The position numbers and the translations under genes are program-made. Source: Rhizobium sp. C1 (GTDB lineage: Bacteria > Pseudomonadota > Alphaproteobacteria > Rhizobiales > Rhizobiaceae). Taken from it: a stretch of 64,000 bases of DNA. The stretch lies in contig NZ_JAJNCY010000001.1 of assembly GCF_021026335.1 (NCBI RefSeq), positions 1,054,001-1,118,000 on the forward strand, given 5' to 3'. Position 1 is the first letter of the stretch. Each line of letters begins with the position of its first letter. Positions 19,249 to 21,209 of this stretch are shown in pieces. Below the pieces are notes generated by a model. That model saw nothing but the letters and a program-made list of their open reading frames with translations. It searched no databases and was not told the origin of the DNA.

Positions 19249-19270
19249 CCCGGGCGTTTATTCGCCCGGG
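19249..19270. terminator. GC-rich hairpin between convergent LigB and small membrane-protein genes
   Basis: CCCGGGCG-N6-CGCCCGGG is a perfect 8-bp stem. It lies 26 bases past the LigB stop and overlaps the last codons of the 41-residue gene on the other strand. It lacks a T tract, so it may act as a bidirectional or rho-assisted terminator or transcript-end stabiliser. Confidence 0.45.
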
Positions 19271-19383
19271 TGCATTCGGCGATGGCGACGATCATTCCAA
19301 TCGTTCAATAAAACGATGCCCCATCCCAAAGCTGCGATCAAAAAAGGCAATATATAGAGATAGAACACGATAGTGTCGCTCAT
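19258..19383 (-). CDS. 41-residue single-pass membrane protein, second gene of a coupled pair
   Basis: Too short for usual gene finding. It begins at the ATG whose last bases form the stop of the 75-residue gene upstream (ATGA overlap at 19380-19383), with a good AGGAAGG about 8 bases before it. The product, starting MSDTIVFYLYILPF, has one membrane helix (about residues 5-25) and a short basic tail (WNDRRHRRMHPGE), predicting N-out/C-in topology. No family recognised. The coupled start, ribosome site and coherent topology are the reasons for calling it a gene. Confidence 0.6.
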   Translation of the reverse strand: MSDTIVFYLYILPFLIAALGWGIVLLNDWNDRRHRRMHPGE

Positions 19384-19607
19384 GATTGCAACCTTCCTAG
19401 AACGTGTCTAGCTCCGAAATGTAATGCGACAGCAGCAAAAAGCCAAGCGATCGTCGCGAATATCGCAAGCATCGAAACGTGAACGCTCGCACTTCCGACG
19501 GATGCCGCGACAGCCGGCGCGATAAATCCCGCAGCTGCACAGGCAGTGGATGCGCGGTCCAGCGCGTTGGCGAGGAGTTTTGTGCGTTCGTTTCGGATCA
19601 GGCTCAT
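19380..19607 (-). CDS. 75-residue two-helix membrane protein, function unknown
   Basis: A small protein with two hydrophobic segments (about residues 20-37 and 44-66) and the basic N-terminus MSLIRNERTKLLANALDRAS. GGAAGG lies 2-8 bases ahead of the ATG. Its stop overlaps the start of the 41-residue gene, so both are probably made together and may form a complex. It lies downstream of ctaA on the same strand, 162 bases after its stop, with a palindromic repeat in between, so it likely has its own promoter or is read through from ctaA. Confidence 0.65.
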   Translation of the reverse strand: MSLIRNERTKLLANALDRASTACAAAGFIAPAVAASVGSASVHVSMLAIFATIAWLFAAVALHFGARHVLGRLQS

Positions 19608-19746
19608 GGCCTTCCCATAGCACAGCCCGATACAACCGTCACGCGATCAGCGTTTTTCAGAAGGATACACTTGCGTTGCTTGCCGCGTCGGGAAACGTTC
19701 CAAGCTTCAAAGGAAGCGCTAATACGCTCTATCGTCTCGTCTTTAC

Positions 19747-20852: not shown

Positions 20853-20990
20853 CGATCATCACCTTTATGAAACCAGAGTTGATTTGCCTGTAAAGGCGGT
20901 GCATTACAAGCGCCAAAGGGTCGCATGGACGCCGGTTCTCCAAGCCTGCCGTCGCTCCGTGTGGGAGGAACGCTTGAAACGAGGAAGCAG

Positions 20991-21209
20991 ATGCCCCTGA
21001 GACTGAGAAAACTGATCGGCATGATCGCGTTGATCGTCTTCATCGGCGTCTATATCGTCATCGTTCTTTCGGTTGCCTCGGTGCGATTTGCAGATGCGCC
21101 GTGGTGGTCTCACCTCATCTTTTTTGCCGTTGGCGGTCTTCTCTGGGTTCCGCCGGCCATGGCCATCATCAAATGGATGGAGCGGCCGGTCGACGACGGA
21201 CGTCGTTAA
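20991..21209 (+). CDS. DUF2842 small membrane protein
   Basis: A 72-residue protein with two membrane helices (LIGMIALIVFIGVYIVIVLSVA and WWSHLIFFAVGGLLWVPPAMAIIKWM), ending in a short tail RPVDDGRR. This matches DUF2842, an alphaproteobacterial family usually placed beside ctaA. GAGGAAG lies about 4-8 bases before the ATG at 20991. A role linked to terminal oxidase assembly is a guess from synteny only. Confidence 0.85.
   Translation: MPLRLRKLIGMIALIVFIGVYIVIVLSVASVRFADAPWWSHLIFFAVGGLLWVPPAMAIIKWMERPVDDGRR

Follow-up and report, generated by a model that had tools for sequence, protein, structure and literature searches.

A promoter-like signal inside a protein-coding gene in a family of little-annotated small membrane protein pairs of Alphaproteobacteria

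Introduction

In Rhizobium sp. C1, two very short and overlapping reading frames for membrane proteins lie beside ctaA, raising the question of whether they are genes at all and, if so, what such a pair of peptides is for. A first-pass annotation of the window, that is, of the whole 64,000-nucleotide stretch of DNA analysed here, had described them as a coupled pair of 75 and 41 residues, which we call A and B. By calculation we establish the two genes, their pairing, the selection acting on them, a constraint on the DNA of A with the layout of a promoter, a start and a ribosome site, and the occurrence of tandem and orphan copies of B. The main interest lies in what appears to be the footprint of a promoter inside A and in the size of a little-annotated family. 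A toxin/antidote or holin/antiholin-like role of the pair is the best mechanism we can offer, and it is unproven.

Results

The gene pair and its family

Both reading frames are present on the minus strand as described, joined by an ATGA overlap (Table 1). The predicted two helices of A and single helix of B agree with AlphaFold2 models computed on family alignments, which fold A into a helical hairpin (residues 2-36 and 46-70; pLDDT 88.7 for the best model and 68-74 for the other four) and B into one helix (residues 2-35, pLDDT 89.5). The ribosome site of its own with which B had been credited could be placed at a GGAAGG 8 nt before its ATG. Within the helix of B a Pro is invariant in a 39-sequence alignment, and the basic tail of the protein ends in HPGE. 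The perfect hairpin at this end shows paired changes in close relatives (by eye), and a terminator scan called no terminator there; a conserved terminator or hairpin was ruled out, as the structure is present in the closest relatives of the window only, and HPGE is therefore read as a protein feature. Ahead of A, 28 bp (19617-19644) are nearly invariant in three genomes, and the spacer before these 28 bp is hard to align.

Table 1. Features of the A-B locus, in window coordinates.
Feature	Position	Strand	Remarks
Perfect hairpin spanning the B stop codon	19249..19270	-	Similar hairpins in close relatives, not family-wide
Gene B	19258..19383	-	41 aa, ATG start, one predicted membrane helix
ATGA stop/start overlap of A and B	19380..19383	-	Equal -1 offset in 151/168 homologous loci
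Gene A	19380..19607	-	75 aa, ATG start, two predicted membrane helices, N-terminal NERTKLLANALDR signature
GGAAGG, Shine-Dalgarno-like site of B, inside A	19392..19397	-	8 nt ahead of the B ATG
Inferred region where transcription of B starts	19409..19412	-	Base A enriched at synonymous sites in the family
TACATT, -10-like hexamer inside A	19418..19423	-	Spelled by TTA-CAT-T (Leu-His); spacer from the -35-like hexamer exactly 17 bp
TTGGCT, -35-like hexamer inside A	19441..19446	-	T + Trp codon TGG + CT
GGGAAGG, Shine-Dalgarno-like site of A	19610..19616	-	Read from sequence
Possible promoter of A	19617..19644	-	Conserved, by eye, in three same-genus genomes with the pair at this site

The pair belongs to a family of widespread, largely unannotated gene pairs of Alphaproteobacteria. 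A pattern scan of GTDB genome contigs returned 148 stretches, 126 of them confirmed and 80 kept, from Rhizobium, Neorhizobium, Brucella, Phyllobacterium, Mesorhizobium, Devosia, Xanthobacter, Methylobacterium, Azospirillum, Skermanella, Roseomonas, Paracoccus and others. With a family-profile search, A was present in 107 of 394 sampled genomes of the same bacterial family, and in 5 of 385 genomes of a class draw and 9 of 299 of a phylum draw, own genome counted in both; B was found in 67 of the 394 at E <= 0.01, and chance probably accounts for a few of the most marginal matches. One genome gave 11 matches to the A profile and another 8. The window genome itself holds a second, diverged pair (G000:C1:411462-411784; L002, L148), consisting of A', 46% identical to A, and a 38-aa B', which carries the same embedded motif and lies behind a trypsin-PDZ (DegP-like) protease gene.

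Pairing was assessed on a curated set of loci. From 185 A loci first taken as distinct, nine outside 60-90 aa were set aside (L082 and L186, which are one locus, L087, L226 and L172, all broken; L200 and L233, fused; L229, cut by a contig end; and L109, an intact A set aside through a start-coordinate slip), giving 176; subtracting five hidden duplicates gave 171, with the His anchor in 167, and subtracting the disrupted L083, L228 and L231 gave 168 intact loci. In L200 and L233, A and B form a single in-frame fused ORF, possibly through simple frameshifts, and both were left out of the analysis; such fusions would conflict with the topology that the charges suggest. A B start follows A in 164 of the 168 intact loci, at an offset of -1 (NTGA overlap) in 151 and of +2 in 10. 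The four As scored without B are L089, whose B has an early stop, L230, the divergent L239, which lacks B, and the doubtful L163; L230 was scored by script yet has a B in another frame by eye, and L163 may lie outside the family.

Both proteins are under purifying selection, with dN/dS of 0.119 for A and 0.129 for B in 26 close pairs, some with a common member, when pooled over the comparisons with unsaturated dS. The first-pass annotation had been ready to give up the pair if the 41-codon frame lacked conservation in relatives or showed no purifying selection; since B accompanies A at 164 of 168 loci and both ratios are low, that outcome did not arise. A and B are real, co-inherited genes, and a reading of them as spurious ORFs is ruled out by the same ratios and pairing.

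Known families gave no lead. Neither window protein had a match above cut-off in Pfam or NCBIfam, weak Pfam names (IncE, E 0.14) being disregarded, nor a match in PADLOC or the PHROGs, and no toxin, holin or antitoxin family in these four collections was matched. For A, no homologue was found in 50,697 phage records (two queries), no sequence relative in the PDB, and no match at E <= 0.001 in fold searches. The window region gave no Rfam match at E up to 5. A literature search at the level of abstracts, with PMC10117765 and PMC5082802 covered through search terms, found no paper on the pair.

A promoter-like signal inside A

On the coding strand of A, from 19446 to 19418, the sequence reads TTGGCT-(17)-TACATT, followed by GGAAGG and the ATG of B. 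This signal was absent from the first-pass annotation, as were the paralogous pair and the tandem and orphan Bs. To judge from its conservation it looks like a promoter for B embedded in A, and very probably it is transcribed. Of 142 non-redundant loci (representatives drawn from an earlier set of 171 anchored loci, near-identical ones collapsed, similarity below 0.85), 110 have the two boxes in exact register, compared with 5 matches in 1.05 million flank positions, and 32 lack one or both. The pattern TTGSMT-N17-TACATT occurs three times in the 4.5 Mb of the own genome, two of these occurrences being in A and A'.

Reading frame and promoter-like signal appear to shape each other. Among the 167 anchored homologues, TTA or CTA encodes the Leu that precedes the conserved His in 135 of 156 cases, versus 185 of the 1742 remaining Leu codons in these genes (Fisher p about 1e-92); within the 142 representatives, the Leu codon under the -10-like box is TTA or CTA in 113 of 132 versus 163 of 1481 elsewhere. 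Other conserved Leu columns have these codons in 4/86, 16/162, 18/148 and 12/143 cases, and seven ORFs of the window in none of their 231 Leu codons. At the -35-like box the codon is TGG in 119 of 167 loci and TGC or TGT in 38 of 167, a Trp/Cys alternation that arises because TTG is kept. The frame sets limits of its own: by sequence logic, TTGA in the -35-like box and TATAAT in the -10-like box would each create a stop.

A scan of synonymous sites, in which third positions were compared with the codon usage of the rest of A and read for forward-strand signal only, located the constraint. Chi-square values were 257 and 148 at the edges of the -35-like box, and 137, 905 and 75 just before and within the -10-like box. 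The expected start site scored 143 and 69; at the ribosome site, where synonymous sites are purine-biased across the family, the values were 86 and 54. The remaining offsets from -60 to +33 stayed at 1-20, apart from two that reached 25 and 27, and the final codon of A (+36) scored 192, shaped by the ATG overlap.

Presence of the boxes goes with presence of B. All 131 loci with both boxes have B, and the four 'no B' loci, one of them a scoring miss, are all among the 35 without one or both boxes (p = 0.0017), 31 of which keep B. The named loci without the -10-like box are from Methylobacterium, Azospirillum, Skermanella, two Mesorhizobium relatives and two Hyphomicrobiales MAGs. A generic promoter scanner made no call at the TTGGCT/TACATT motif, because the hexamers agree with TTGACA/TATAAT at only 8 of 12 positions.

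Tandem, orphan and plasmid copies

Two or three Bs stand in a row at 8 of the 19 loci of the two copy-richest genomes (by inspection), and arrays of different Bs behind one A were seen at L129, L130, L132, L135, L136, L139, L141 and L147, as well as at L180; the leader of some second Bs is a decayed remnant of the 3' end of A. Strict mobility of the copies was rejected, and part of the copy number is attributed to old duplication, since some copies look orthologous between the two copy-richest genomes by eye.

The pair also occurs on plasmids of Komagataeibacter, Novacetimonas, Microvirga and Methylobacterium, in one case with three Bs. Two diverged members used as queries in the plasmid search gave 8 and 10 records; the window protein gave no match there. 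The expectation that B would easily be overlooked by annotation was borne out in four plasmid records, which list B in none and A in one, the gene table being incomplete. Brn toxin or antitoxin genes lie in two of the four plasmid neighbourhoods read: both are Komagataeibacter plasmids (L179, L180), where genes for the BrnT toxin or the BrnA antitoxin lie within roughly 0.5-2 kb of A and B, and one of the two loci sits in a conjugation gene region. On plasmid pC of Methylobacterium sp. FF17 (L178:2228-2733), a small regulator gene, recognised by a PADLOC 'control protein' model (E 2.4e-10), overlaps A with its end, and regulator, A and B may form a three-gene operon.

B may outlast A more often than the reverse. 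B is intact with A broken or absent at 13 loci (four of them forming two ortholog pairs, with L083 and L226 borderline), and A is intact with B broken or absent at 2-3, the two counts coming from searches of unequal sensitivity. With gene length allowed for and loci treated as independent, this asymmetry is not significant (p = 0.064) and is therefore only a hint. The promoter-like signal is also gone in 9 of the 13 broken-A loci, with B persisting. Orphan Bs are under selection in the two ortholog pairs compared, with dN/dS of 0.12 and 0.23, which means that B is of some use even when its own A is missing. One of these pairs (L248 and L251, from two genomes of the window's genus) has the selected orphan B ~110 nt behind a phage holin-like gene, which in L248, where it was tested, has a PHROG holin match (E 4.8e-7).

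Genomic neighbourhood

The first-pass annotation had considered an oxidase-linked role from the position beside ctaA, which comparison with other genomes did not support. The pair adjoins ctaA in the window genome and two relatives (G002, G005); two genomes of the same genus (G001, G004) have ctaA with the site empty, and the less similar G003 has no pair at the ctaA site either. Among the upstream ORFs scanned (93 of 100) there was only one CtaA (L021, same genus), the commonest families being MurB (7), MaoC (6), ArgC-type dehydrogenase (3), trigger factor (3) and lumazine-binding (3). Because the site is filled in some genomes of the genus and empty in others, and neighbours elsewhere are diverse, ctaA is an address and not a partner. 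A and B as cytochrome oxidase accessory genes were accordingly rejected on synteny, there being no conserved linkage to oxidase or haem A genes. A gene for a DUF2842 small membrane protein (window 20925-21209, plus strand; Pfam E 1.5e-20) is divergent from ctaA.

By a codon-position G+C score, 77 of 97 loci have their nearest upstream ORF on the strand of the pair, and convergent genes flank 51 of the 97 pairs; where an upstream gene shares the strand, its median distance is 47 nt. Among tandem neighbours, same-strand outnumbers opposite-strand by 25 to 11 with this score (p = 0.029) and by 23 to 13 with a cruder longest-ORF pick (p = 0.13); both schemes are rough gene calls, and the longest-ORF pick put the upstream gene of the paralogue on the wrong strand.

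Discussion

We tentatively read A and B as a two-gene membrane module in which B is made beyond A, A is harmful alone and B is its restraining partner. A would be translated from transcripts that run on from the preceding gene or that start at a promoter belonging to A. B would be translated in two ways, through coupling to A via the ATGA and from a short message of its own with a leader of about 26 nt, which would start at the promoter within the last 22 codons of A; two such routes would leave B in excess of A. The layout of the signals looks as if the cell needs more B than A, and we infer that B is made in excess and that A and B touch in the membrane. Unpartnered, A, a two-helix membrane protein, would be harmful in a holin-like or toxin-like manner, and B, with its single helix, would be the partner that keeps A in check. 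To see A as harmful and as held by B is the best reading because the two are membrane peptides, patchy in distribution, multicopy and independent of their neighbours; taken by itself, the claim that A is harmful and B its antidote is possible and open to considerable doubt. A wider proposal is that these are a new class of membrane-only poison/antidote modules behind housekeeping genes, with A expressed via read-through, B secured by the promoter in the codons of A, and antidotes amplified and diversified in tandem. This we regard as rather unlikely. On this proposal, the placement of the promoter would mean that the 3' codons of A could not persist without B staying switched on.

The main rival, nearly as likely as a harmful A with B as antidote, is that the two are subunits of an ordinary small membrane complex, or accessories of a transporter or envelope enzyme, with B present in more copies and no toxicity involved. 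Such a complex of unequal stoichiometry would equally account for the strong pairing, the purifying selection on both proteins, the tandem Bs and the embedded promoter-like signal. A patchy occurrence (107/394 family genomes), no conserved neighbour, 11 matches to A in one genome and plasmid copies in four genera would, however, be unusual for a fixed housekeeping subunit.

It is improbable that the function lies with B, as a small single-helix protein regulating some other membrane protein, with A a dispensable companion or promoter carrier. The promoter-like signal that B would own, its tandem duplications, the selected orphan Bs and the more frequent loss of A (13 loci versus 2-3) are what one would expect of such a regulator, but A is equally constrained (dN/dS 0.12) and keeps an N-terminal NERxKLxA region that lies far from the promoter.

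Still less probable is that the constraint within A marks some other signal, such as a regulator site or an RNA element, which the imperfect hexamers (8 of 12 consensus positions) and the negative generic scan would allow. A spacing of 17 bp, a start-site A 8-9 bases past the -10-like box and a ribosome site at the right distance speak for a promoter instead; moreover, there is no Rfam match at E up to 5, and the motif is not palindromic by eye. That A and B are small oxidase subunits linked to ctaA, which they adjoin in the window and two relatives, is hardly credible, as synteny contradicts it: ctaA stands without the pair in two genomes of the same genus, neighbours elsewhere are unrelated and the paralogue in the same genome follows a protease gene.

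In its sequences the family shows what appears to be a clear trace, left by evolution, of a promoter lying within coding sequence. If the preferred reading of a harmful A restrained by B is true, the pair is a membrane-only module that safeguards its antidote supply in a way of its own; even if it is false, dual coding can be tested easily on this family, and many small proteins deserve a name.

Three kinds of known system invite comparison. Small respiratory subunits of the CydX and CcoS type are single-helix proteins of about 30-45 aa whose genes overlap or abut a membrane gene, and they sit in their oxidase operons. B resembles them as a small single-helix protein overlapping a membrane gene, but the A-B pair has no fixed partner gene. 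Class II holins have 65-95 aa and two membrane helices, and the 75-aa helical hairpin of A fits both their size and their build, with B as a single-helix partner in the manner of an antiholin; one orphan-B lineage also lies behind a gene of the PHROG holin group. In contrast to holins, A has no phage match and the window proteins no PHROG match, and the loci are chromosomal, behind housekeeping genes; we have not filed the pair as a holin because phage relatives were not found.

Toxin-first toxin-antitoxin operons with internal antitoxin promoters include higBA and hicAB, and in the mqsRA system MqsR has an RNase fold. A and B differ from mqsRA in that both are membrane peptides with no RNase fold, and in that B, with one membrane helix and no domain matches, lacks a DNA-binding domain; an antitoxin of the mqsRA type has one, with which it autoregulates. 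No sequence relation of A or B to mqsRA-type systems was found in Pfam, NCBIfam or PADLOC. Toxin-antitoxin systems of type I pair a membrane peptide with an antisense RNA. Two adjacent, co-inherited small genes, as expected of a toxin-antitoxin system, are found at 164 of 168 loci, and the pair is not filed as one because B has no DNA-binding domain and the toxicity of A is only proposed. A measured precedent for an excess of the second product is that internal promoters uncouple the antitoxin mqsA from the toxin mqsR, as reported in PMC6918082. The likeness is one of layout: mqsRA and A-B are each two short adjacent genes, the second of which has internal promoter(s) in mqsRA and can outrun the first (PMC6918082), and has a predicted one in A-B.
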